DNA of 64,000 nucleotides from contig CAMPDV010000017.1 of the NCBI GenBank assembly GCA_946699065.1, positions 930,001-994,000 of the forward strand. The letters are read 5' to 3'. The DNA is from Loxodes magnus (Eukaryota; Ciliophora; Karyorelictea; Loxodida; Loxodidae). The notes below the pieces were generated by a model. The model had not been told where the DNA came from, made no database searches, and worked only from the letters and a program-made list of their open reading frames with translations. Positions within the stretch are counted from its first letter, which is position 1; each line of letters begins with the position of its first letter. Position numbers and translations under genes: made by a program. This document shows, piece after piece, positions 20,951 to 56,863 of this stretch.

Positions 20951-23496
20951 ATGAAGACTGCTATAGGGAAAAGATCCAACCATATTGCTATTTAAGAGTT
21001 TAAAAGTGAAATAAACTAGAATATTGATATTTTTCTCAAACGTAGGAAGGAGTAGCACTCGTAGTGAGAGCTGAATCTTAAGAATTCTTATAAGTTTGAG
21101 CAGAATATTAAGAATTAACTTAGCTAAACTTAAAGCTAATATGAAAGTATGGATTAGTCATTTTCAAGGCCTCTTTCTAAACCTGTCAGTAGAATTTAGT
21201 CGCCTTTTGATAGAAGAGCTTAAACAGTGCATAAATAGTTTAAATCTATGCAAATAGATTATAACAAAAGCTAAAACTAAACTTGAAAAACTAAATAGAA
21301 AAGACTTTAGAACTACTTTAGAAGTACATTTAGTTCTCCATTAGTAAGGATCAAAAACTTATAACTCAACAAACTAAACTTATCACTAAGTAATTACTAA
21401 ATGTCCAGCCTTTATAAGTTTAAAATGCCTCAGTATGATATCAGAACTACTAAGATTAGAAATTATAATGATATGGTTCATAAGTTAAATAATTAAAAAA
21501 GAAAGAGGATTTAGAACCTTAAGCATTAAAGCTAAAAAACTAGTTTAGATAGTTCAATGATTGATGATTTAGTTAACAATAAGAAAATACTTTAACTTAA
21601 GAATTTAGAAAAAGTAAAAGAAACGGAAGAAAGGAAAATGTAAGATGTAAGCCAAATTATTAAACCATTTCCTGTTTTAGTATAAAAATAAGAAAACTTA
21701 GAGAAACCTGAAAAACCTAAGGAAAACTAGATAAACTTTTTTAGTAAATTTAGGATAAATCGTTAAATCAAAGAAGAGATTAAACAAGATGAAAATAAAT
21801 AATAAGATCAGCAAGAGCAAACTTAAATACTTATAAATGTATAAATAAGTAAAATACAGCCAGAATAAGACTAAGAAAAATATTTCAAGCAAACTAATAG
21901 AACGAATAGAACAGGGAGGAAATTTACAGAAATGGCTCAAGAAAAATTAATGGAAGGTCAAATTTTATAGAAAAAATAAAGTCTTTTAGTACCTGGTGAA
22001 GATTAATAATAAAATTCATAAAGAAGTAATTAGCATTCATAAAGAAGTAATTAGCATTCATAAAGAAGTAATTAGCATTCATAAAGAAGTAATTAAAATT
22101 CATCAAGGAAGAAATTTGAAAATATACCGATTATTAACTTAGTTACTGCTAAAAGTTCTGAGAATAAACGATCAGCATAAATATCTTAGAATAGAAGTAG
22201 CTAAAGTACCTTATAACTTAAAAGAGAAAACTTTTTTGTAAATAAGTTATTAATAAAGAAATTTAATCAGGGTCAGTAATAAAAATCCATTTAATAGACT
22301 ATAGAAAATAGCCCTCTAATAAAAAGTGCTCAGTTTTCTAATTAAGCGCTCTTAGGAGGTTTATTTTCCAAAGTCACTAAAGATTTCATAGATAAAAATA
22401 AAAATTAGTACACATAAAGTTATCTTAACTTCCAATGGTAAAACTTCAAGGATTTATACTAAGAAATTAAAAAGAAGCAAATAAAATTGATAGAGATGTA
22501 AAATAAATAGCAAGAAATGAAAGTTAAGCAAGCTTAAAAGGTGAAGGAAACAATGGAAGAATTACTTGACAATAAGAAGAACTTAAAAAAGTCATTTAAA
22601 ACACATATTCTTATACTATAAAAGTGACTCATTTCCATCTGTAAGCCAACACTAGCTGGAATATACTTCAATAACTCCATTAAATTCTACTTGCTTCTAA
22701 ACGAAAAGCAAGGCTCTCAGAAGGTAGAACTAATAGAGCAGCAAATGACTTTTCTATTGAAATATATTTTTGAACTAATTACCGTAATATAGTAAAACAT
22801 CCCAAAAATTCCGGACTAATTCAAAGTATTTTCCTATATCGTTTTTATATTCAAGCAATACTTCCCTTAGAATTATTTCAGTAACTTCGAAAGAAACAGA
22901 ATCTAGATTTAAAACGATGATATTTTATAAATCACTTAGCTAGAGTAGAATAACCCTTTGACTTAGTAGTTTCTTATCATCTTTTTAATATTCACCAAAG
23001 TACTAGTTAAAAAAATACTAATGAAGCCTAAAAAGCTGCAGATAAGTTAGGAATATTCAGAAACATAAATAGAGAATTTTAAGATAATAGCTAGCCTTAT
23101 TTAAGTAATTGTACTTGACCATTATCTATTTTTTGGAAGATTAGATTAATAAAATATAATCATTGAAAGAGACTTTCAAAATGGATTTTACACCCAAACT
23201 CATAATGTAAGATATTTTATTTTAATTAGAAAAACTTTGACAAAATATCTAACTAGCTGTATATACTTAACTAGATTAGTATGATCATTGATTAAATCAA
23301 ATTAAGAAACCATTATACAAAAATTAATGATATCTTAGACTAAACTTCCAAAATCTTCTTAAACGATTGTAAAGCTAAAGCTTTACATTACTAAATCAGA
23401 AGCTATAAGGCTTAGGAGAACTAGGATAATACAGTTCAATAGAAATAGGAGGAAAGCAATGCCATCGATAATAGCTATTTTAAGTTAAATGAATGA
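20951..23496 (+). CDS. Gln-rich hypothetical protein with heptad tandem repeat
   Basis: Conservative start ATG 20951; the same frame is open about 85 bases further upstream without an ATG. TGA stop at 23494-23496. A 23-nt intron at 23207-23229 (starts GTAAGATATT, ends TTAATTAG) is needed to keep the frame, giving 840 residues. The N-terminal two thirds is polar, rich in Gln, Lys and Asn, and contains four copies of HSQRSNQ (about residues 356-383). A coiled stretch (about 500-540) precedes a more ordered C-terminal part with hydrophobic helices (for example YIFELITVIQQNIPKIPDQF near 605). Three internal TGA codons are read as Trp. No catalytic motif or family was recognised. Confidence 0.65.
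22015..22098 (+). repeat. 4 x 21 bp in-frame tandem repeat
   Basis: Unit TCATAAAGAAGTAATTAGCAT repeated four times without gaps; the first three are identical and the last differs at its 3' end. Because 21 is a multiple of three, it encodes four heptads (SQRSNQ plus H/N) inside the Gln-rich gene at 20951-23496. Identity between copies points to recent slippage. Confidence 0.9.
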
Positions 23497-34579: not shown

Positions 34580-34828
34580 TGAATTTTTATCTACTTTTAA
34601 ATCAAATTTGAATAATAATTACTTTTAATCTAATTTCTATTTTTAAATCATTATTTATTTAAAAAAGAAAGATAAGTACATAAATAAAACCATTAAAAGG
34701 TATGTTAGTGCTAATATACTAAAATATTGTATTTATTCTAAAAATTAACTTAATTATGCGAAGAAAGAAAAATTAATTAACAATCTATCGCGCAAGAAGT
34801 CAAATAACTTAATCTAAGTAAAATTTAT

Positions 34829-35130
34829 TAATTAATTTCAACTAAAAAAGTTTTTTGACCGGAAATCCCTTTCCGATTGCACGATCCGACGCTCTCTTTT
34901 TATGGAATAACGGGGATATCCTGTTGCTTTCGAAAAGCAGCTGCCAGGGAGCTCCATCGCTATGGGCAGCCAGGCTTCAAGCCCCTACCAGGAGTGGATA
35001 ATCAAAAGGAAGGCGTTCCCTTGCAAAGGTTGACTTAGACCAGGGACTTTCTCAGCGACAGGAAAGGAACTTGTTCCTAGCCATAAAACCAGAAAGTGTT
35101 GTCACGAAGGTCATTCTCAGCTCTCACCAT
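34829..35130 (-). other. GC-rich twin unit A (small ORF or structured RNA)
   Basis: A GC-rich block (about 50% G+C by eye) in very AT-rich DNA; its last 190 nt (to 35096) match unit B at 36188-36457 with only five differences. Read on minus from ATG 35128-35130 it gives MVRAENDLRDNTFWFYGQEQ and continues about 66 conserved codons to FRKQQDIPVIP; four of the five differences are silent if TAA/TAG are Gln. Read as RNA, it folds into several hairpins (CGGAAA/TTTCCG, GCTGCC/GGCAGC, GGAAC/GTTCC, CTTTC/GAAAG), and changes between units keep pairing. I cannot decide between the two, and I recognise neither a protein nor an RNA family. The minus-strand order suggests it may travel with the Gag-like remnants. 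Confidence 0.6.
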
Positions 35131-36187
35131 CTTTTCAATTATAAGTAAAATTTATTTATATCTTAAATAAATAAAATTAAAAGAAAATCTAGTTTACAAT
35201 CAAATTAAATCTTTACTTTTATCTAATTTTTATTCTATCACTTCTAGATAGATGCAATAAGCATAAATATTTTTCAAATTACAAACTAGGTGTAAAGATT
35301 TTGGATTATTCAAAGTAAAAATAGAAATAATTATTCTAAGTCAGAAAGGGTGGAAAAAATTGTTTGATAAAAATAAAAACTTAATACTTATTATTTAACG
35401 TATAAATGAGAAAAAAGTTAAATTATTATACGTAATTTATAAAATTTAAAAATTCAAAAGTTGCTCTATAAAACTACGATTAATGGATTTCAATCAATTT
35501 AATATGAATTCTTTTTTATTTTTCAACTTAGACACTTAAGAATTTTATAAGAGAATATTTTTTATTAAATATAATTAAACTTATAAAATTTTTTGTTTGG
35601 AAATAAATATTTTTTTAGATTATAAACTACTAGAAATGTTGAAATAAAATATCTTATATCAAATTAAATTAATCAAAATTTAAAAATTTTGTTTTTTCTC
35701 CTAAAAATTCGACATCAATTATCCATATAAACTTCTAAAAACTAAAATTTAATAAATAAAGAATCTAATGATATATACATAATTTTAATGAAAAAATTAA
35801 GACGTTTTAAAATAAAAAATAAAAAAAGTAAAATTATATTGAAATATTTTAAAAAATAAAAAAATTACAAGAAAACGGTTGTAAGAAACAATAAATAATA
35901 AAAAAATTATAAACTATGGTAAAAAATTAAAATATGAAAAAAGTAAAAAACAATAAATAATAAAAATTAAAGAAAAAAAATCAATATAAAAATGAAATAA
36001 CGCAATGTTTATAAAAATTAATCTAAAATTTTTAAAAAGAAATAGAAATATTAAAAAAGAGCAAAAAATTAAAATTTAATAGTAAAAACTGTAAAAAATT
36101 TTAAAAAATTTAATTAAAAATACTAATTATTAAGGAAAAACTAAAAAATAGATAAAAAAAAAAAAAATTAAAAAAATTTTTTTTTTA
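35131..36187. other. extremely AT-rich spacer
   Basis: About 1 kb that is almost only A and T, with long A and T runs (notably 35,750-36,190). No gene or repeat structure beyond low complexity. Confidence 0.6.
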
Positions 36188-36457
36188 AATTAATTTCAAT
36201 TTAAAGAGTTTTGGACTGCAACTTCTTGCAGTTTAACGACCCCAACACTCCCTTCATGGGATAACGGGGATATCCTGTTACTTTCGAAAAGCAGCTGCCA
36301 GGGAACTCCATCGTTATGGGCAGCCAGGCTTAAAGCCCCTACCAGGAGTGGATAATCAAAAGGAAGGCGTTCCCTTGCAAAGGTTGACTTAGACCAGGGA
36401 CTTTCTCAGCGACAGGAAAGGAACTTGTTCCTAGCCATAAAACCAGAAAGTATTCAT
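36188..36457 (-). other. GC-rich twin unit B (small ORF or structured RNA)
   Basis: Second copy of the unit at 34829-35130. The 190-nt core (about 36261-36450) is nearly identical; the outer 70 nt are similar in plan but not in sequence. There, unit A has hairpin CGGAAA/TTTCCG with a four-base loop, while unit B has CTGCAA/TTGCAG with a four-base loop at the matching place. On minus, an ATG at 36455-36457 gives MNTFWFYGQEQ in the same frame as unit A. It lies about 30 bp from the Gag-like remnant at 36490-37193 and on the same strand, so it could be a second, downstream reading frame of that element. Confidence 0.6.
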
Positions 36458-36489
36458 TCCTATAAAAAAAAGAGAAAAATTAATTTATA

Positions 36490-37193
36490 GTCTTAGAGAA
36501 GTTCCACAGTTAACTTCTATTTGTTCCTGCTCTCTCCTAAGCTAAAAGATGTTGTAGGACTTCATTAGTCCGACTTCCTTGTCTCCCCTTCAAAAAATAA
36601 TTTTTCGTTTAGTTTCTTCTCCAGTTGTTATTCTTCTCGTTGAATCTTGAGTTATAGAATTTCTTTCTGTAAATTTGTCCTGTCCTTGTTGTTCAGAAGC
36701 AGAAGAGTTCTTCTAATATTTTTTCTTATTAATTCTTTCAATTTCTGCCCCCTTTCAGCTTTTTCTTCAGCAGCGATTCTTCCAGCATATGTAGCACCAG
36801 ATCTTTCTACAATAAGAATATATCTTATTTGTCTCTTATTATTAATATTCTATTTCGATTTCCATTATTATACTTGATAATACTTGTTATTATTCTTCTT
36901 TTCCTAAAGTTATTTTATTTCGTATTCAAATTTAGAAAATTGGAATTAAAACATTTGAGGAATTTCATTAAATTTTTTATCAATTTATTCCAATTTAATT
37001 TCTATTTACGATTCGAATTTACCAATTGCTTCTTTCAATGATGGAAATTAATGATTTAATGATTAAATCATTTCTTCGTACATTTTTTCTAGTTTTTCTA
37101 TCATTATCTTTGCTATTTTAATTCGAATTTTATATTAGTAATTCGTTGTTGCACAGATTATGCAAAAGCTTCATTAGATTCTATTTTATAATT
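36490..37193 (-). pseudogene. Gag/ORF1-like remnant (a)
   Basis: Minus-strand relative of the plus-strand remnant at 43907-44750, clearly alignable at DNA level but well diverged (roughly 60-65% by eye). It contains the coiled-coil part (KLEQIDKKFNEIPQMFQFQF) and the downstream basic part. It ends exactly where the left inverted repeat of the 8.9 kb element begins, so that element seems to have inserted into or next to it. The copy is incomplete and has several breaks. Family (LINE ORF1 or LTR Gag) is not settled. Confidence 0.55.
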
Positions 37194-37772
37194 AAATAAT
37201 TTCTCATATATAAAAATGAGATTCTTTCATAAAAATACAAAAATATGACTTTAAATATGTTGTTTAGTAAGATTAACATTTTCCTCAAACAAGTTTTATT
37301 TAACCCACTTTATTTATAGAAAAATTGTTTATTAGTACTACCAGTTAAGTAATTTATTTGATTTTAATATAAGAGATAATAGCTGGAAGCAATATATTTT
37401 ATAAATTATTAAATTTAATATTTAAATAGAAAATAAAAGGGGTTAGCTTTTTATTTTATATATCAATTTTAAAAAATATTTGAATGAATGTACTAATGTA
37501 AGTATTATATATTTTGCTTATAATATAACTCATAAATCTAAATTAATAAAATTAGTATGAATATCTTTAAATATGTTAATAGTTTAAAATTATAATAGTT
37601 GCCTACTGTAATTTAATAAATAAGATTATTTTGATTTCTTTTAAATATAAATTCCTCTAAAAATATTTAAACTTTTTATACAAAAAGTATAAATTTTAAT
37701 ATCATAAGTATTATAATTTATTATTATTTTATTTTTTTATATTTAAATTTCTATTAATTTAAAAATATTTTA
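37194..37772 (+). repeat. left inverted-repeat arm
   Basis: Arm of the 8.9 kb element; its reverse complement is at about 45518-46116. Landmarks shared by both arms include AAAAGGGGTTAGCTTTTTAT and GTAGGCAACTATTATAAT or their complements. Very AT-rich, no coding. Its inner end meets the duplicated gene segment directly. Confidence 0.85.
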
Positions 37773-38831
37773 TTTTGATGTTTTGGCTGTACTTTTAAAA
37801 CCATTTTGAATAATAAGGTTTTAGTTGCTTAACCTTATAACATAGCTATACGATAAACTCTAAATGCTTTAGCTTTTAAAAGTAACTTCCTTAAGTAGAT
37901 TTTAAATTTTTGTAATTAATTCCTTAATAAATCCGTCGCTAATGGCTAAAGCAAGTTCATCTTCTTAATTCTATGCTAATTTCGGGTCGAAAGCTTTATT
38001 AGTCTCAAAAAAGATTTTCTACCTTTTTTAAAAATAAATTGGAAGAACTCCATCAGACGCTATGCATACCAGCTGTTCTAATTTATCTTTTATGTAGTTT
38101 TCATATCCTTTTTCGACAAGCTGTCTTAATTGTGAAACTCGTTCTTTGGAACATTCTTGTGATTAAGATATTGTAAATGCAAGCTTAACATCCTCGTAGA
38201 TTGCTTAAATTATTTAAATAATATAGTCTTACTAAAACAGCATGGACATTTCTTCTTAAGCGGAAATAATAATTTTTGATTAATAAAACTATTCTGGCTG
38301 CTTAAATTTATTTTTTTAGTTTTTGAGCTACTAAGTTTGATTATCTTTTCTTTACATTTTTCATTAATTTTACGAAATAATTGTATTCTCTAGCTACTTT
38401 CTTTGATAAAAAGCTTCAGCTATTTTTTTAATATTTTATGTAATTGCCTCTTTCTTTACTTGCTTATTTTTTTATAGTTTACTGAGCTTTTAATATTCTT
38501 GATATATTTCGAAGGCTTTAACTTTTAGATTTTTTTTCTCGACTATAAGATAATGAATAAAGTTATTATAGCAAAAAGTAAATCCGTTGTTATTGGTATA
38601 CTCTTAGAATAATTAATGCTGAGTCACGTTTTCTTCTTTATCTGAAAAAATTTAGACTGTCATAAAGCCACAAAGCGGGAGAATCAGTTAGTATTCTTAT
38701 GTAAAAAGTTAAAATCCAAATCTTGTCATTAATAATGCGAATGTGCTAAACTATCATGGGTTAAATTGAAAGATAAGAGCCGTATATTTTAGATATTAGT
38801 ACATGCAACTGGCCAAAATCGTTTGATTAAA
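37773..38831 (-). pseudogene. inverted 1,059-bp copy of part of the gene at 52871-56863
   Basis: This segment is the reverse complement of 55373-56431. Both are exactly 1,059 bp, and every stretch I compared is identical. It corresponds to about residues 835-1187 of the 1,330-residue source protein, so it has neither the start nor the end of that gene. It begins immediately inside the left inverted-repeat arm. Identity including silent sites means the copy is very recent, or is an assembly effect. It is a captured fragment, not a working gene. Confidence 0.9.
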
Positions 38832-38837
38832 TTTTTC

Positions 38838-39165
38838 TCACACTAGATGCCACCACATTGAAGGGCATTCAAGCTGAGAAGAGACAAGCTAACTTGCCTG
38901 AAGGTTCTTAATAGCAGTGTGAACGTTTGACCTACGGACTTACTAATGAATTAATTACTAACTTTTATTATGATCTTATTCAAGAAGACTGGAGTATTTT
39001 TTTCAAGATTCAAGAATAATCTTTAATAAGCAGATTCCCAATTTGGAGAAGCTGACGAAATATTGAAGGCTAGAATGACAACAATAAGTAGGAGAACACT
39101 TTTTTAATATTAATATTGAAAGAGCTGCGCGCCAATCAGTTACTACACTCTCTATAATCAATTTT
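38838..39165 (+). other. short coding-like remnant ending in the dispersed motif
   Basis: Higher G+C than its surroundings and one good reading: LKGIQAEKRQANLPEGSQQQ, CERLTYGLTNELITNFYYDL, then IQEDWSIFFKIQEQSLISRF. It runs on into copy 2 of the 43-44 bp motif, read there as ELRANQLLHSLQS. No start codon and no family recognised. It starts just after the captured gene segment and may be the tail of a gene whose front was replaced. Confidence 0.45.
39121..39163 (+). repeat. dispersed 43-bp motif, copy 2
   Basis: Begins AGAGCTGCGCGCCAATCAG and ends CTCTCTATAATCAATT; aligns over its full length with the copies at 25845 and 42826. Its hairpin pairing is weaker than in copy 1. Confidence 0.75.
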
Positions 39166-40252
39166 TGATTTAATTGAATTAATAAAGCTTAATTGTCACT
39201 AAAGAAATTAAAATTTTTACTTTTTTAAATATAAAATACAATAAACTAAATATTTAAATCATAATTAATAAAATAAATTTATAAATTGTTTATTTCTTTT
39301 TATTTGAAGTTTTTGATATAATATATATAATATATATAATATATATAATATAACTTTTAATAAATAAATAAATAAATAAACATTTAAAAAATTTATAACG
39401 TTTAATCTCAAAAAAACTTTGCAATATTTATAAATTAAATATAAATTCATAAATATTAAAAAAATATAAAAATGCTTTATAATAAGAATTTTTTATAAAT
39501 CTAAAAAGCATAAATTAAAGAAAAATATTTTTCTTTATTATTTTATAATTAAAAAAATAAATTTAATCAATTATATTATTTATTAATAAACTTTATATGC
39601 TATTTTTAATATTAAAAATGAAAGCAAAATATAAAAATAGTCCATTTTATTAATTTATTTTATTAATAAGAAATAAGTTTTTATTTTATTTTATGTTTAT
39701 TAAGATATTCTATTTTATTCGTCTATCTAATACGAATAAATTTTTATAATTAATGTTAAAATTTAAAGTTTCATTTAAAATATATTCAAAATAATTTAAA
39801 ACTGGAATTTAAATTTAAAAATAGTAAGTAATTAATTTTAGATTAATTATTAATTTTTTGTTCATTATTAAAAAAGTACTGTAATAGATTAAATAATTTT
39901 TATACAAATTAAAAAATTAAATAAATATACATTAATGAATAAAATAATTTATTAGAAAGTAAATAATTGTAATTTATAATATTTTATATACATAATCAAT
40001 TTATTATTGCTATAAATAAGATTTTTATGTTTTATATTATAATTAAATTTAAACATCTTTTTAGTATTTAGCTAGAAAATATATTTAAAATAAATAAAAT
40101 GATAATTCTAAAATATTTTAATTCTAAATCTTATTAAATATATAAATATTTAATAAAATTATTATTTCTAACTTGGATTTTTAAAACTTTTTATTTTAAA
40201 TATTTATATTTTAAGATAAAAATTTAAAAATTTGCTATAATTATAAAGGGAA
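39164..40252. other. AT-only spacer with microsatellites
   Basis: Almost pure A+T. Contains an (ATATATAAT)n run at about 39316-39352 and an (ATAA)n run at about 39360-39381. No gene seen until the kelch gene. Confidence 0.6.
39316..39381. repeat. AT microsatellites
   Basis: Three units of a nine-base ATATATAAT-type repeat followed closely by about five units of ATAA. Confidence 0.8.
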
Positions 40253-41182
40253 ATGAGCCAGATTCTTTTCGTTTTATATTTAAGGAAAATTTTTAGAAAA
40301 TAAGCAAATTTTTCGGATAAAAGATTGATAGCTAAATTTGGTATAGGAGTAATAAAGTATGAAATTTGTTCAAATCTGAAAGGAATAGATAAAATTTAAA
40401 ATATTTCAACAATACGATAAGACTCTAATTTTAAAATTACATTTCAAGCAAAATAAGATAATATTAGTGAAGAAAAAATAAGTATAAATAATACAGCTTA
40501 CAATTACACATAAGTTGAGTAAATTTCTAATAATGACTTACTTATATCAGGTGGTGGAGATTACGATTAAGCTCGCTTTACTATTTACTCTAAAATGTAT
40601 AAAACTTAAGAATTTAAAATGTAATTTTAAAGATATTATCACAAAACTAAATTCAACTAAAGAAACATTTTTTACATTATATCAGGAATTAAAAACTAAT
40701 AATAAATGACAGTTAATGTATCTGAATGCGAGACTTTTAATATTATTACGTAATCCTTCAAAAAAATTGCTCCTATCTAAACTCCAGTTTAATTATTTGG
40801 ATGCGATCAATTTTGTTTCTAAGTTTTTGTTTTTGGAGGATTAAATTAAAAAATAAGTGATTATGTTAATAAAATTTAAAAATATAATAGTAAGAAAGAT
40901 TTATGAACTGAATGCGAACAAAATATTTCAAAGAAGGCTTCCACTTAAGCTATCTATATATCTAAAAAAAGTAACTTTCTCATTTATTAAAATGGATATG
41001 ATTATATTGATACTTAAGTGTATGATCTGAAAAGTATATTAAAATAAGGATAAGTATTTCCTTAGAGAAACAATAGTTACACTCAACCAATTTAGTGTGA
41101 AAATTATGTCTATCAATTTGATTAGATGAGTGATTTATATAGATATGATCTATGTAATAAGAAATGGAATGTGGTTTATTGA
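40253..41182 (+). CDS. kelch-repeat protein carried inside the inverted-repeat element
   Basis: ATG 40253, first TGA after the conserved part at 41180-41182, 309 residues, no intron needed. At least three kelch-like blades are visible: NDLLISGGGDY (near 92), IFYIISGIKNQQQ (near 132), and CFQVFVFGGLNQKISDYVNK (near 188), followed by YRYDLCNKKWNVVY. The Trp in KDLW is written TGA. The terminal TGA could also be Trp, since the frame stays open about 45 codons further. The N-terminus lacks an obvious second domain. Composition is poorer in Gly and Ala than the other genes, so it may be decaying. Closest relative in the window by architecture is the B-box/kelch gene at 11855, without the B-box. 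A cargo gene is the likely explanation. Confidence 0.6.
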
Positions 41183-41289
41183 AATTTTAAATTTTTTATT
41201 CTAATTGGTAATTAAAAATAATATTAGCTAAAAATGATTAAGTAGTTTTAAAATATTAAATAGTAAAATTATATTCCATCTATTCTTTA

Positions 41290-42290
41290 TTTTTTCGCTT
41301 TAAAGTTTTCACTTTAAAAATGAAAATTATATTCAATTAACTGAAAAAGATGTCAAAACTCTTCTCAAATCCAAAAAAACAGAAGATAACAAAATCCTTA
41401 GAGAGACTAGAGCCAAAAAGGGATACCAAAAGGTCACCAGCCATGTTGAGATTTCAACATTTGAAGAGAATAAAAAAATTTGATAAAATTACTTTGCACT
41501 TGTAAGACAACTAAGCATTAAATAAATTATGATTAGCTGTTTAAGTGGATTTGAATCTTCAATAAAGGTTAAGAAGTTGAAGAAAAGCAAAATAATTTAA
41601 TAAAAAAACTTGAAATTGCAGAGGAAAATGAATAGAAACTAATGGTTTAGAAAGAGATCTTAACATATTTTGAAATATTTCACAATATTAGAACAATTAA
41701 TTATTAAATTTTCAATAGAAGCGAAAAGAATTGAGAAATAAGACAGAAAAATAGAATTAAATGAATAGAATTAAAGCGTTTAATGAAATTAAGAGAGTTT
41801 TAAAACTATAAAATGTTAATCAAAGAAGAAAAAGCTCAAATTTTAAACCCAATCGAGAACAAAAGATGCTATTATTGCAACTCTCTAATGTATCTGTGAA
41901 AATATGATAGAAATTTCACAATTTCAAATAAGAGTATTGTAACTACTTGAGAAGTTGGACAGCAAAGAGAAGAAACAACTCAGATATAACTAAAAATAGA
42001 AAGAGAAAGATTATATTGCGACAAATTAGGAGAAGGTTTACAAGAAAAAATATATCAAGTATTGTCTAGGTGAAAAAATAATTCAAGGATCATATGCATA
42101 GCAAGAAGTAAAATTGTAGAAAATTACAAACTTTATTATTTAGCCTCTATAGTAATCTAGGGATTGGTGAAAAATAGGTTAAAGTACTTCTAAAAAAGAT
42201 AAGCATTTAACTTAGTATTGCATATACAGAAATAATCAGCAACACATAGAAAATTTAGGAAAAAATTAATTGCTAATTTCAACTTAATTA
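41290..42290 (+). pseudogene. Gag/ORF1-like remnant (b)
   Basis: Successive coding-like stretches on plus: a basic N-terminal part (TEKDVKTLLKSKKTEDNKIL), a coiled coil (EEKQNNLIKKLEIAEENEQK) and a degenerate zinc knuckle (CYYCNSLMYLW) recognisable by comparison with the remnant at 48955-49735. The copy is old and broken in several places. No reverse transcriptase follows. Confidence 0.45.
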
Positions 42291-42299
42291 TTATTTATA

Positions 42300-42660
42300 A
42301 TATAAAACTTAATTTTATTTATCATAACAAAATCTATGAAAGATATTTTTAAAATTTAGGTTTTGTTTACTCTCATTTTATCTTATTTTAGAAAAGTCTA
42401 GAATGAAACTTTAATAAATATTTAAAATATTTTAACTTTTATGATGTAAAATTATTATGGAAATATCTTAAATTTATAAAAGCTAATTTAGAAAACAATT
42501 AATTAATTTATTTATTTTTCATTAAACTTTCAAAATATTTTATCTTGAAAAGAGAAGCATTTTATTTTATTTCATGTTTGGCATAATTCTTAATCCTTTC
42601 ATTTGAGCATTATTAAGTTTTTAACTATTTAAAAAAAATAGTTTAATTAAAAACAATAAA
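42300..42660. other. AT-rich spacer
   Basis: No coding composition; contains the leader before the 42661 stub. Confidence 0.5.
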
Positions 42661-42800
42661 ATGGCACCTAAGAAACTATTCAGCTAAAATCAATCTTCTA
42701 ACTAACAATAAAATACCTTAATTAAGATTTATTCGATACAACTATAGGATGTAGTGCAGCATTAATTCAGCAAATAAATAGCATTGATTTAAAAATTTAC
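42661..42800 (+). pseudogene. 5' stub of a second MAPKK-type Gag-like copy
   Basis: Leader and start match those of the remnant at 43907: both read AATAAAATGGCACCTAAGAAA. The likeness fades within roughly 100 bases, and the dispersed motif copy 3 and an opposite-strand GC-rich remnant follow. This shows at least two copies of the family inside the element. Confidence 0.5.
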
Positions 42801-42825
42801 TAAATTTAAAATGATAAATCAATTA

Positions 42826-42869
42826 ATTAGATTATAGAGCGCACAGCACTCTCGTTGGTACGTAGCTCT
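42826..42869 (-). repeat. dispersed 44-bp motif, copy 3
   Basis: On minus it begins AGAGCTACGTACCAACGAGA and ends GCGCTCTATAATCTAAT, matching copies 1 and 2 with about a dozen differences and one extra base. Confidence 0.75.
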
Positions 42870-43160
42870 TAAAATTAATTTTATTTAATGTCGAAAAAAA
42901 TTTTATGGGTCTCTCTTTCCTTGTTTCCTCTTCGTGCAGTACGTCCCTGTAATTTTTCCTTCCAAAGCATAGGATGAAATATGCGATTACGGGTGCTTTT
43001 CCCCGACCTATGATGAAGAAAGTTTTCTCCTGGCATTCAGAGTTCTCCAGCTTGTCACATCTTCTTTCTCTTTTCATTGGTTTCTTTTCCTCCGATTTAT
43101 CCTCCGTCCGCACTCATTTTTTTGCCTTGCTGAGCCTCCAAGCAGCATCCTAAGGAAAGG
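42835..43160 (-). other. GC-rich coding-like remnant, minus strand
   Basis: Far richer in G+C than its surroundings. The best minus-strand frame is highly charged: GKPFPQDAAWRLSKAKKW, then VRTEDKSEEKKPMKRERR, then KTFFIIGRGKAPVIAYFILC. A second frame with an ATG (MSADGGQIGGKETNEKRKK) is also open, so the frame is not certain. The downstream end overlaps motif copy 3. No family recognised. Confidence 0.45.
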
Positions 43161-43906
43161 GCTTTCCACTATATTTAAATTCTTAATATATAATGATTTA
43201 ATTTAATTTATTTTCCTATTAAAATTAAAAAGTTTTAATTTGTTTGCAAAATTTTTAATGAATAAAACTTTTTAATTTATCTGCTTAAAATTAGAAAATC
43301 TTATTTCTAAAGAAATTTTATAAAAATTTTAATATTTAAATTTTAAAGTCAATTTTTTTATTTTATTAATTTTAGTTAATTAATTGTCAGATTTTCACCT
43401 AAATTGTAATAATAAATTATTTAAACAATAATTTTTCCTTTAACTCAAACTTGAATTATGAATAAAATAGATTTTTGGTATTTCTATCACTTTAATTGAC
43501 TTTATGCAATTTTTTTAATTTAAATTATTCAGTTAAAATATTTCTTTCTGTTCAAATTTATTAATAATATTGCTTTTAAAAAGCAAAGAAATAGTTGAGA
43601 TGGTTCAATTTCACTTTATTTTTTGTTTAAATAACTTTCATTATTTTTTTCTGAATTATAATATTAAAATTATCTTAGAATATATTGTTGATTTTAAATA
43701 TTCCAAAAAACAATTTTTGAAAAGTTTATTCATAAGCAACACTTTCATTTTTTTATTTTATTTTTATATATAAATAAAATTTTTAATTTTCTTATTAAGT
43801 ATTTAATATCCTTTACTCAGTAACTCTATTTTTTATTTTCTTTTATATGGGAGGTTTTTTATATATAAAATTTAAAATAAGTTTTTTTATTAAAAAAATA
43901 AATAAA
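43161..43906. other. AT-rich spacer
   Basis: Homopolymer-rich; no gene or repeat seen apart from the leader of the next remnant. Confidence 0.5.
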
Positions 43907-44750
43907 ATGGCACCTAAGAAATAATAGACCTCTATTAACAAATACTTGAAAAAATAAGAATAATCTAATTTAATTGAAGAATAGCCTTAATAAGATAAAG
44001 ATTAATAATCTAAGGAATCCTTTGCATAATCAGTTCAGCAAAGGATATCAAATATCCAATATGACTTGAAAAAGCAAAGATAAAAATAGAAAATTTAGAA
44101 AACTTACTAGAAAAATTAATGGAATAATTAAACCTATAATTCCCATCCATAGATGAATCATTAAATAAAATCTAATCGTAAATAGTAATTAAATTGGAAT
44201 AAATTGATAAATAATTTAACAAAGTCCCTCAAATGTTCCAATTTCATTTTTCTTAAATTGAATATCAAATAAAGCAACTTTAAGAAAAACAAGAATAATA
44301 ACAAGTAATAATTTAAAAATTATAAGATTAATAAGATTAATAATCAAATGTCCCAATGGAAATCGAATCGGAATTCTAATAATAAGAAATAAATAAGATC
44401 AATTATTATCGCAAAAAGATTCGGTGCTATTTATGCTAGAAAAATCATTGCTGGAAAAAATGCTGGAAGAAACAAGAAATTGAAAAAATTAGCAAGTAAT
44501 AAATATTAGACTAACTTTTCAGAATATGACCAACAAGAACAGGATAAGTATACAGAAAGAAATTCTACAACTCAAGAAACAACGAATTTTATAAAAATGG
44601 AAGAAGAAACTATAACGATAATTAGTGGATGAGGGAGAGACAAGGATGGCGGACTAATGTAGTCCTACGCAGTCCTTTAGTTCAGGAAAGAGCAGGAACA
44701 AAAACAAGTGAACCCTGGAGCTCTTTTCTAAAACTATAAACTTAATTTTA
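43907..44750 (+). pseudogene. Gag/ORF1-like remnant (c), MAPKK type
   Basis: Most complete copy of its type. Begins MAPKKQQTSINKYLKKQEQ, continues with a coiled coil (ENLENLLEKLMEQ; KLEQIDKQFNKVPQMFQFHF), a CCHC-like zinc knuckle (CYLCQKNHCWKKC) and a basic, Arg/Trp-rich tail (RERQGWRTNVVLRSPLVQER). Coiled coil plus knuckle is the plan of LINE ORF1 and of LTR-element Gag; no enzyme region follows to tell them apart. It is an old copy with at least one break. The remnant at 36490-37193 is its diverged relative on the other strand. Confidence 0.55.
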
Positions 44751-44809
44751 TCCTTTTTTAATATACTTTTTGAATTTTACAATTCGTCAGAAATTAATTA
44801 AAATATTTT

Positions 44810-45470
44810 GAAATGAAAGAGAATCAATTTGCTATTGAGTTATTTTCTCCTAAATCTCTATCGACAGGGTTTTTCTTCAGTTTCCTTTAATACAGCATTT
44901 TTTGTTTTGTGGTTGCTTCATGTTTTAAGTCTTAAATTCCAGTTTAGTAAATTTATCTTGTTCTCCAATGTTGTAATTAAATGAGCGATTCTTATCCTCC
45001 ACTGGCTTTTAATATTTCTTGGAATATTCTTCTCATATTGGGAGAGGTCTGCAAAGGGATGGATTGAGGCAATAGATTGATTTTTCAGCAGTTTGTGTTT
45101 ATTGTAGCATTGCATTTCTGTACACTAATTGAAGTATCTTTAGTCTTCCGTTGTCCTATTGATACTTTAATTACATAGTTGTTTCTTGAAAGTCACGAGC
45201 CCACCACATTATGACACATATACTCTCTCTATTAAAGCCATAGAATCTCAAAGAGAATTTTCCTTCCACTGCTCAATAAATCAAAATTTTTTTTCGCATT
45301 AACGGGCTAACAGCTTCAGAGTTTCAGTTAAAAATCCAATGGGAATTTTTCTTTTACTAGTTCTTTGGTCAATATTAAGAGCCCTTCACTTCCGTTGTTG
45401 CATTTTGTCCTCTGATGTGTGGCATAGACTTTGTCAAGTATATTTATTTCAACTTTTTTTTCAGTTATTT
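44810..45470 (-). pseudogene. unidentified decayed coding remnant
   Basis: Clearly coding-like composition on minus spread over more than one frame: for example EGLLILTKELVKEKFPLDFQ, ILQLVYRNAMLQQTQTAEK and IASIHPFADLSQYEKNIPRN. It is either a broken gene or one with unrecognised introns. It adjoins the right inverted-repeat arm and probably belongs to the element. Family unknown. Confidence 0.45.
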
Positions 45471-45517
45471 TGATAAATTAAATTACAAATATATAAATAT
45501 AAATTTTTTAAAAGCGA

Positions 45518-46116
45518 AATAAAATATTTAAAGATAATAAATTTAAATATAAAAAAATAAAATAATAATAAAATAATAATAAATTATAATACTTATGATA
45601 TTAAAATTTATACTTTTTGTATAAAAAGTTTATAGAGTTTAAATATTTTTAAAGGAATTTATATTTAAAAGAAATCAAAATAATCTTATTTATTAAATTA
45701 CAGTAGGCAACTATTATAATTTTAAACTATTAACATATTTAAAGATATTCATACTAATTTTATTTATTTAGATTTATGAGTTATATTATAATCAAAATAT
45801 ATAATGCTTACATAAGTACATTAATTCAAATATTTTTTTAAAATTGATATATAAAATAAAAAGCTAACCCCTTTTATTTTCTATTTAAATATTAAATTTA
45901 ATAATTTATAAAATATATTGCTTCCAGCTATTATCTCTTATATTAAAATCAAATAAATTACTTAACTGGTAGTACTAATAAACAATTTTTCTATAAATAA
46001 AGTGGGTTAAATAAAACTTGTTTGAGGAAAATGTTAATCTTACTAAACAACATATTTAAAGTCATATTTTTGTATTTTTATGAAAGAATCTCATTTTTAT
46101 ATATGAGAAATTATTT
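45518..46116 (-). repeat. right inverted-repeat arm
   Basis: Reverse complement of 37194-37772, with a few small insertions (for example near 45,625). The outer end is GAGAAATTATTT. It is followed outside by ATAGGAATGAATATT, which resembles the start of unit B read on minus (ATAGGAATGAATACTTTCTGG region), possibly a trace of the insertion site. Confidence 0.85.
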
Positions 46117-52870: not shown

Positions 52871-55800
52871 ATGTCATCTAAAGAATTTCCCTCAGAAATT
52901 GTTCCACTTAGTTCATGCTTGCTTTAAAATCTTGTTTTAATACAAGGAGCCTAAAACTATAAACTTTATGAAGCAAAATATTAAAATGCTTTTAAAATAG
53001 TTAAAGAGTTTGATTCTGAAAAAGACTAGCACTAAAAGATTAACTTCATGCAGGAACTTTAAGTCTATAAAAACTTTTGGAAACAAGGTTTGAAATCCAG
53101 TTGCTTTCTTTAATTAGAAAGCTATGCTTTCGATAGTAAAATGATGCTTATTTTCAGAAATTTTGCTTACAAATTAATTTAACCCTTATCAGAGTGAAAG
53201 AGCATCAATGTAGAGGATAGTTAACTGCTAGTGAATATTGTTGGGTAACTAGCTCAAATATTTACGTAAAAAGATAAGTGAAGTTTTTACTTTTCATTAG
53301 ATAGTGTAGTATATTAGAATTTCCTAGTTTAGTAAAATGAGGATGGTATTTATTAGTTGAAATTACTAGAATTCTTAAAGAAGCATACTCACTAAATCTA
53401 ATCTAAGAACTTACAGGAAATCGAATATTTATAGTCAAATCATAATAACGAAATAATTTATCTCTGCTCTATTCTTCTTTTCTGCCTATAGCAAGGAGAA
53501 ATTTTAGTGTCTGTAGAGGAAATCTACCAGGCTTTAACAGGAAAAGCTTAATTCTAGCTTCAAATTTAGCAGATAGGAATAGACAGTAATCTTTAAGAAC
53601 TTTTATATCATATTATCAAATAAATAAACGAGGAGCAGAACCCAGACATTCATTACCTAACTACCAAGTTAAAATAATTAACTATCGGGGAAGAGTCTTC
53701 CAAATGTCACTTGCAACTAAATAAAGTAATGAATGCTTCCATAATTAGCTTAGTACCTGGAGAATTGGAAGATTATTTCTACTAATAGAATTAAAACATT
53801 CTCAAATATATGGATACTATTACAGAGTGGCCTTAAATAGAAGATAACAAGAAGCTTTATAAATAAAATTACCTAATTAATGTTTTTACCAAGTATAATG
53901 AAAAAGCCCTTGAAAAATATCTAGACAAACAAATTAAAGATTAATTTAAAGACTGCAGCTTAAAAACAATTGTACTATAGACCTTAGGGAAGTAAAAACT
54001 GGGAATTTATTTATTAGTTATTTAGCAAGAATAGCAATAAAACTCTGGAGTACATAAGGAAAGTATAGAATAACTTTTAAATAAGAGAAAATTATACAAA
54101 ATAGACTAGTACAAAGATATTAATTAAGCCTATTAAGATAATATAAAAAGCAAAAATTACTTAGTTCCTTAATAGTGCAAAGCTATGTGAGGTGATGAAA
54201 AAACACTAACAGTGCTGAATGAAATTTCTTTAATGAAAACATGCCTTACATATAATTTGCTACCTCTATCTCATTACTTAGAAGAGCAATAAGAAATAGA
54301 TTTGAATAGTGTAAGCAATTTTTTATTTAATATAACATAAATGATCTATAATATGTGACTTGATTAAGTAACAGTGTTTCCTCTTAATCCATATTTAATT
54401 CTAGTAGATAAGTAATTCTCTGTGATAAAGATAATGAGTGAAACAGTTCCTTTGTCTCTATTTGAAGAGGAAAAGTAGCCTTGCTTGCTTCTAAACTACC
54501 ACATCCCAAACTATTAATATTTTAGCGTGTAGCAACTTTAAGATATGCAAAACTAGAAATAACTAAATATTAATTAAGTACTAATACACCAAATTGTAAC
54601 TTTAACCTTACGCTTAATATAAGGAAAAGATTTTCAATTATTTTAAGATTCTTAAGATTAGAGGAGAATTTATGAGCAAATGCACAACCAGTTCGAGGAA
54701 TGGAAGCAAATATTCATTGACTAGCTTTTAAATATTCTAGAGAAGTATTAAACTCTAACCTTTATGCAGATTGTTACTTTAATAATGAATATGATAAAGC
54801 AAAATGCTCTCAATAGAAAATGGAAATATAGAGAAATTGAAGTAGATAAAACATTAAAAAAAACATAATAGAAAGAATGCATAGGTACTAAAACGGGAGA
54901 TACTAAAAAATATAATACCTAAGTAATAATCTAGAATAAAGAAAAATCTGAAGTGTAGATTAAAAATAGGGATCTCAAATTATTATTTCAAAATAAATTT
55001 TCATATTCTTCTTCTTTAATCAAATAAATGAAGAATCTATAAAAATTAAATACCAATAAAGAGAAAAAAACTGATACATAGGATTAAAGCTAATTTAGTA
55101 AATCTTGGAAAAATGTATCTGAGGCTATGGAAATGATTCCATAACTATTGATTGATAATAAATTTTATGAGCATTTCAATCAACTAAAAATTACTAATAA
55201 TAGCACTAAAAGATTAATAAATCCAAATATTGATAAAAATCCAAATGAGATATTCGAAATAGCTCAATATTACGTAGAAATATCAAAGAAATAAATGCAG
55301 GTTTTTAAGAAATATTAATATCTCTAAATTAAACCACTATGTAGAGCTTTGGCTATTTACTATGAAAGATAGTTTAATCAAACGATTTTGGCCAGTTGCA
55401 TGTACTAATATCTAAAATATACGGCTCTTATCTTTCAATTTAACCCATGATAGTTTAGCACATTCGCATTATTAATGACAAGATTTGGATTTTAACTTTT
55501 TACATAAGAATACTAACTGATTCTCCCGCTTTGTGGCTTTATGACAGTCTAAATTTTTTCAGATAAAGAAGAAAACGTGACTCAGCATTAATTATTCTAA
55601 GAGTATACCAATAACAACGGATTTACTTTTTGCTATAATAACTTTATTCATTATCTTATAGTCGAGAAAAAAAATCTAAAAGTTAAAGCCTTCGAAATAT
55701 ATCAAGAATATTAAAAGCTCAGTAAACTATAAAAAAATAAGCAAGTAAAGAAAGAGGCAATTACATAAAATATTAAAAAAATAGCTGAAGCTTTTTATCA

Positions 55801-56863
55801 AAGAAAGTAGCTAGAGAATACAATTATTTCGTAAAATTAATGAAAAATGTAAAGAAAAGATAATCAAACTTAGTAGCTCAAAAACTAAAAAAATAAATTT
55901 AAGCAGCCAGAATAGTTTTATTAATCAAAAATTATTATTTCCGCTTAAGAAGAAATGTCCATGCTGTTTTAGTAAGACTATATTATTTAAATAATTTAAG
56001 CAATCTACGAGGATGTTAAGCTTGCATTTACAATATCTTAATCACAAGAATGTTCCAAAGAATGAGTTTCACAATTAAGACAGCTTGTCGAAAAAGGATA
56101 TGAAAACTACATAAAAGATAAATTAGAACAGCTGGTATGCATAGCGTCTGATGGAGTTCTTCCAATTTATTTTTAAAAAAGGTAGAAAATCTTTTTTGAG
56201 ACTAATAAAGCTTTCGACCCGAAATTAGCATAGAATTAAGAAGATGAACTTGCTTTAGCCATTAGCGACGGATTTATTAAGGAATTAATTACAAAAATTT
56301 AAAATCTACTTAAGGAAGTTACTTTTAAAAGCTAAAGCATTTAGAGTTTATCGTATAGCTATGTTATAAGGTTAAGCAACTAAAACCTTATTATTCAAAA
56401 TGGTTTTAAAAGTACAGCCAAAACATCAAAACAAGATGAAGAATAAGACTCGTAATCACAAGAAAAATTATTCTAAGACTACAATGTTAACTTAAATGAT
56501 AAAAGAGCAAGCAATAGGATAATTTCCTATTAAATCATTTAATATTTCAAAACTTAGTTGAAAAATAAATTGGAAAATAACGATGAAAAGACGATAGAAG
56601 AAAAGAGGCAAAAATATTTCGAAAGAATTACCAAAAAGTTTGTAAAAGACTCTTAAGCAAGATAAAGTTGTAAGTAGAGTTAAATAATTTTTTCTTTTAT
56701 TCTTAAATAAATTTAAATAGATCTATTAATTAAATAAACAAATCTAATCGCTTCTTAAAAATTACAGGGCCCTTAATCTACTTCCTTACTATTCTAGTTA
56801 AGTATTAAATAATAAAATAAGAAATTTAATTTATGCTAACACATGAAAAACCTTTAAGATTGA
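52871..56863 (+). CDS. large Gln-rich protein of unknown function; source of the captured fragment
   Basis: ATG 52871; the frame runs uninterrupted to TGA 56861-56863, 1,330 residues, with about seven internal TGA as Trp. The last 60 codons are more AT-rich, so the true end could be slightly earlier through an unseen intron. Residues about 20-130 (KLYEAKYQNAFKIVKEFDSE, then KMMLIFRNFAYKLIQPLSEW) faintly resemble a protein-kinase N-lobe without catalytic motifs; this is weak. A low-complexity part (about 650-760) separates two helical halves. The C-terminal half is well ordered in composition, for example FALLMTRFGFQLFTQEYQLI and AFEIYQEYQKLSKLQKNK. Residues about 835-1187 are duplicated, inverted, at 37773-38831. 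Family not recognised. Confidence 0.75.

Follow-up and report, generated by a model that had tools for sequence, protein, structure and literature searches.

How did a piece from the middle of a large gene come to lie in reverse orientation beside an inverted repeat in the ciliate Loxodes magnus, 16.5 kb from the gene to which it belongs? We addressed this question in a 64-kb stretch of DNA (C17:930001-994000, hereafter the window, to which positions without a contig name refer) and in searches of the whole genome, which comprised 705,730,643 bases in 7,843 contigs. The features discussed below are collected in Table 1.

Table 1. Location of the copy, its source, the neighboring repeats, and the related gene family (C17 is the contig of the window)
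Feature	Position	Strand	Remarks
Derived copy, internal gene fragment	37773-38831	-	Spans source-gene codons 835–1187, in the opposite orientation to the source
Source segment inside the gene	55373-56431	+	
Source gene	52871-56860	+	Open frame of 1,330 codons (TAA/TAG = Q, TGA = W); stop and any 3' intron provisional
Left arm (b)	37194-37772	+	AT-rich, 14% GC; abuts the copy on the left
Right arm (b')	45517-46116	-	
High-copy interspersed repeat	38836-39175	+	Starts four bases past the right edge of the copy
Diverged copy (~78%) of the high-copy repeat at ~43884-44759	36466-37180	-	13 bp from the left arm
Inverted family pair, 3,684 bp	C17:1064144-1067827 and 1097179-1100862		5 mismatches (99.86%)
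Inverted family pair, 3.76 kb	C17, about 1007.9-1011.7 and 1049.8-1053.5 kb		95.3%, 24 gap openings
Inverted family pair	C16, 948.6-951.6 and 960.7-963.8 kb		96%
Family clusters	C148:366-483 kb; C16:948-1042 kb; C17:982-1133 kb	Both	Many duplication ages
Long family members per contig			At least 7 on C17, 8 on C148, 7 on C16, 2 on C56, 2 on C7790, and 1 on C1

The copy and its source

A sequence-only reading of the window had described an exact inverted copy of 1,059 bp; its coordinates, orientation, and length were correct, whereas its exactness was not. By BLAST and alignment, the copy and the reverse complement of the source segment share 1,058 of 1,059 bases with no gaps. The sole substitution, at window position 38141 in the copy and 56063 in the source, falls on an in-frame TGA (codon 1065) that reads CGA in the copy; this place is aligned in 14 of the 15 paralog loci compared, and none of the 14 encodes tryptophan or arginine at it. 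Within the window, exact inverted matches reach 690 bp, dropping to 25 bp when the left arm and the copy are masked, and five first-order Markov simulations of 64 kb with the same composition gave exact inverted matches of 19–24 bp by chance. Searching the genome with the 1,059-bp segment returned eight places: two are full-length, both in the window, and the remaining six are partial, at 66–73%. No second haplotype of the locus was present among the places returned for this segment or for the left arm.

Both edges of the copy are abrupt: beyond them, its flanks bear no relation to the flanks of the source, and a blastn comparison of the window with itself found no further match to the rest of the source gene around the copy. 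The reported position directly at the inner end of the left arm is also borne out, as arm homology runs out at 37773 (37775 by BLAST), the first base of the copy.

Reading the source gene depends on the genetic code. Under table 11, not one open frame in the window reaches 150 codons from a usual start; long open frames emerge once TAA and TAG are read as glutamine, one of them covering nearly the whole Cullin profile. The source gene additionally requires TGA to be read as tryptophan. Between 52871 and 56680, TGA occurs seven times in its frame, versus 21 and 31 times in the remaining frames of the strand. According to PMC11441545, Loxodes magnus uses the ambiguous karyorelict code.

The direction of copying can be read from the paralogs. 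A single tblastn stretch (e.g., residues 778–1220) covers both codons 835 and 1187 in 10 of the 14 paralog loci compared; in three others (L028, L031, and L032), the alignment passes the first edge only, and in L005, each edge is crossed, by separate pieces. Because the source gene aligns with its paralogs across both segment edges, these alignments place the 55-kb segment in its original context and identify the 37.8-kb copy as the derived one. In a tree of 14 rows, copy and source are each other’s closest relatives (100/100 support). The source segment is still at its own place, in an open gene, and an inversion by staggered breaks was rejected for the 1,059-bp pair because the gene runs through the source segment uninterrupted. 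The proposal that host gene sequence had been copied recently also withstood scrutiny: one mismatch in 1,059 is less than the 0.6% heterozygosity estimated for Loxodes magnus (PMC11441545), and the source gene is intact.

What the source gene encodes is less readily described. At E 1, the whole protein matched nothing in Pfam or PDB, and two NCBIfam matches (E 0.035 and 0.063) were sub-threshold, far under the cut-offs. For the conserved part, a 12-member alignment had no PDB match at E 1; 14 Pfam families turned up for it (best E 0.00095–0.76), each in one or five of the 12 members, and were not believed. A single-sequence structure prediction of this part had a mean pLDDT of 35 and was uninformative. 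The family has no convincing relative in Pfam, NCBIfam, or PDB.

The gene family and its other inverted pairs

A protein search of the genome placed the source gene in a family with at least 27 long members among the scored matches. The search yielded 42 rows, with 35 of 216 first-look candidates scored, so all counts are lower bounds; the rows group as 27 long members, the copy fragment, and seven short matches to one common stretch. Pairs within the family span about 80–99.9% identity, and several are inverted (Table 1). For instance, the 3,684-bp pair on C17 accounts for the two near-identical places among the 12 returned by the search; it begins three bases 5' of an apparent start codon and extends to roughly codon 1,227, between unrelated flanks. 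The 5' edge of the 3.76-kb pair on the same contig lies ~10 to 15 codons past two different apparent start codons. As both long C17 pairs begin at or near apparent start codons, and the copy at 37.8 kb is internal, different mechanisms may lie behind the pairs and the copy.

The family also has direct pairs, so inverted copying is not its only mode. One such pair on C148 is 95.5% identical over 2,093 bp. Another direct pair on that contig contains a 1,051-bp stretch at 98.9% (L030:2319-3369 versus L031:2337-3387, at about 416 and 432 kb), outside of which identity is ~86.5% over 1,039 bp, which suggests possible gene conversion in the 98.9% tract.

Neither of two control stretches from the window has a near-identical second copy: a search with the cullin gene returned only itself, and one with a WD40/TPR stretch returned itself and an 80% relative on another contig. 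A further control of 19.5 kb was uninformative, its own place being absent among the 39 of 61 candidates scored. With a control set this small, only two being usable, inverted copying may be specific to the family or frequent throughout the genome. A literature search, judged by title, found no ciliate study of inverted duplication in ciliate gene families.

Origin of the copy

The copy abuts one of a pair of inverted arms. They align between 37194-37744 and 45555-46116 at 96.6%, with eight mismatches and three gaps in 562 aligned columns (BLAST), and are identical for ~280 bp counted from the outer end; the differences past that point include five substitutions within 37486-37544 (59 bp), one at 37657, and a 9-bp gap. 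The inner edge of the right arm is ragged and AT-rich. Between the arms lie a stretch with kelch motifs and further high-copy repeats. Inversion by staggered breaks is a possible origin of the two arms themselves.

At the arm/copy junction, three T residues fit either side, an ambiguity of a length expected by chance in so AT-rich a sequence. Judged by eye, the right junction is not as clean: additional T residues separate the copy from the repeat at 38836-39175. This repeat has 39 other scored places at 78–81% (40 of 4,170 first-look candidates were scored), and the copies compared extend upstream by another 35 to 85 bp, depending on the pair, a portion absent here at the copy junction.

Other repeats crowd the neighborhood. 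A unit of ~870 bp at about 43884-44759, with an open frame starting MAPKK, has 39 other scored places at 96–99% (40 of 2,357 first-look candidates scored); it is a young high-copy repeat, probably mobile. Its diverged relative beside the left arm does not include roughly 105–125 bp of the repeat’s 5' end. A ~270-bp repeat occurs in two direct copies at 89% (34824-35097 and 36181-36451) and is possibly a short interspersed element. Another high-copy repeat, at about 41519-42219 (some copies start from 41362), has 70–75% identity to 39 further places among the 40 scored of 2,848 candidates. At 22014-22116, a 21-bp unit is repeated in tandem ~4.9 times (93% matches). Rfam at the gathering threshold and a tRNA scan gave no matches in the 64-kb window.

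We favor the reading, with a probability of roughly 0.64, that the copy is a young insertion, locally templated during break repair. A break or collapsed replication fork would have occurred near 37–39 kb; to repair it, ~1.06 kb would have been copied in reverse orientation from the gene that lies 16.5 kb downstream, and both ends would have been joined with minimal homology or none. The route would perhaps have been microhomology-mediated break-induced replication or a related form of template switching. Part of the neighboring repeat may have been lost in the same event. This reading draws on the abrupt edges, the short and ambiguous left join, the missing repeat sequence, and the retained source, although the repeat may have been truncated before the insertion. 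The insertion site also adjoins a gene-family cluster with several earlier inverted copyings of coding sequence. Conceivably, the left arm was copied in the same episode, since arm and fragment can both be read as inverted downstream copies and the arm homology ends at the fragment; the divergence of the arms (8 mismatches and 3 gaps in 562 columns) against that of the copy (1 in 1,059) argues against one event, with the caveat that five of the eight arm mismatches are clustered within 59 bp.

Templated insertions in human tumors offer a close parallel. As PMC10482687 describes them, these involve mostly long-range junctions, and microhomology-mediated break-induced replication is proposed for their formation. 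As is proposed for the copy, they place a short copied segment at a break with minimal homology while the source is retained (PMC10482687). Unlike those insertions, the copy is local and inverted, and it is known from a ciliate assembly; the tumor insertions serve as an analogy for Loxodes and are not evidence for the mechanism there.

Of the two mechanisms put forward in the sequence-only reading, template switching fits better than Pack-type capture. Pack-TYPE transposons carry a host gene fragment, shared terminal inverted repeats, and a target-site duplication, and are related to an autonomous element bearing a transposase. Capture by a DNA transposon, with the two arms as its terminal inverted repeats, would produce an arrangement such as the one found, with inverted arms 7.8 kb apart and a host gene fragment directly at one inner end. 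Unlike Pack-TYPE elements, however, this locus has no other copies among the places found: the left arm returned two genome places, both being the arms of the locus 37194-46116. The outer flanks have just TT in common, and moving the ends by as much as 5 bp reveals no match of at least 5 bp; a six-frame Pfam search between the arms (E 0.05) detected kelch motifs and no transposase domain. Because the arms were found only here, with no transposase domain detected between them and no visible target-site duplication, the arm-to-arm unit is not demonstrated as a transposon. PMC11441545 judges the DNA-transposon annotations in the Loxodes magnus genome likely spurious and reports no compelling homologs. 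Pack-type capture is thus a very unlikely origin. Reverse transcription by a LINE of a piece of mRNA, followed by its insertion, would account for the copy in a genome with thousands of LINE-related domains (PMC11441545), and after a one-base shift of the copy edges, a 5-bp ATTTT appears at both. That match is weak, as it emerged when 121 combinations of ends were compared in sequence of very high AT content. The fragment comes from inside the gene and lacks a poly-A tail; what directly follows its sense 3' end is sequence homologous to the right arm. Intron loss is neutral here because the segment that was copied has no obvious introns and stays open in one frame. On balance, a retrocopy appears unlikely.

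Clustered multigene families with inverted segmental duplications contain members in both orientations and pairs of many ages, and the family studied here resembles them, being grouped on few contigs with pairs ranging from ~80% to 99.9%. The copy could, therefore, be what erosion has left of a longer birth-and-death duplication, or an older copy that gene conversion has kept close to its source; for the latter, the 98.9% stretch on C148 could provide a precedent as a conversion tract within an ~86.5% pair. Unlike the duplicates of such families, however, the copy is a bare internal fragment rather than a whole member, and blastn detected no other part of the gene beside its abrupt edges. We regard this origin as improbable, if a little less so than a retrocopy. 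A chimera made by the assembler or in the library would also produce an inverted copy: the macronuclear assembly was built with Falcon from about 20–30x PacBio HiFi reads at a 96% identity threshold, and misassembly of low-complexity repeats is suspected by its authors (PMC11441545). However, long accurate reads should span a 1-kb insert with unique sequence on its left and a distinct repeat on its right, the copy carries a private substitution, and C17 has two similar cases, albeit from the same assembler; an assembly error is, accordingly, as doubtful as capture by a transposon.

Antisense potential and significance

The copy is probably a non-functional fragment and most likely inert because it has neither a start nor either end of the gene. 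If it were transcribed along the plus strand of the window, the RNA would be antisense to the source, and the copy might then give rise to antisense small RNA. This idea is not absurd, given that the 24-25-nt small RNAs of Loxodes are strand-biased and probably antisense silencing RNAs (PMC11441545, section 10). Similarly, antisense endogenous siRNA loci occur in Tetrahymena, as cited in PMC6735861; the copy would, if transcribed, supply antisense RNA as these loci do, and, unlike the Tetrahymena and Loxodes loci, it is known here from sequence alone. A single hairpin transcript is unlikely because 16.5 kb separates the two copies. A bolder proposal is that Loxodes magnus repeatedly copies coding segments of this family, which would be lineage-specific, in inverted orientation over 10–40 kb and that the resulting fragments serve as antisense sources of strand-biased 24-25-nt RNAs tuning the family; we consider this quite improbable.

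No extensive programmed DNA editing has been detected in Loxodes magnus. The locus adds a recent case in which local inverted copying has left a gene fragment in a ciliate genome. If transcribed, such fragments would be natural antisense sources for small RNAs, the templates of which we did not encounter in the literature covered, and the family cluster allows inverted copying to be studied at several ages.
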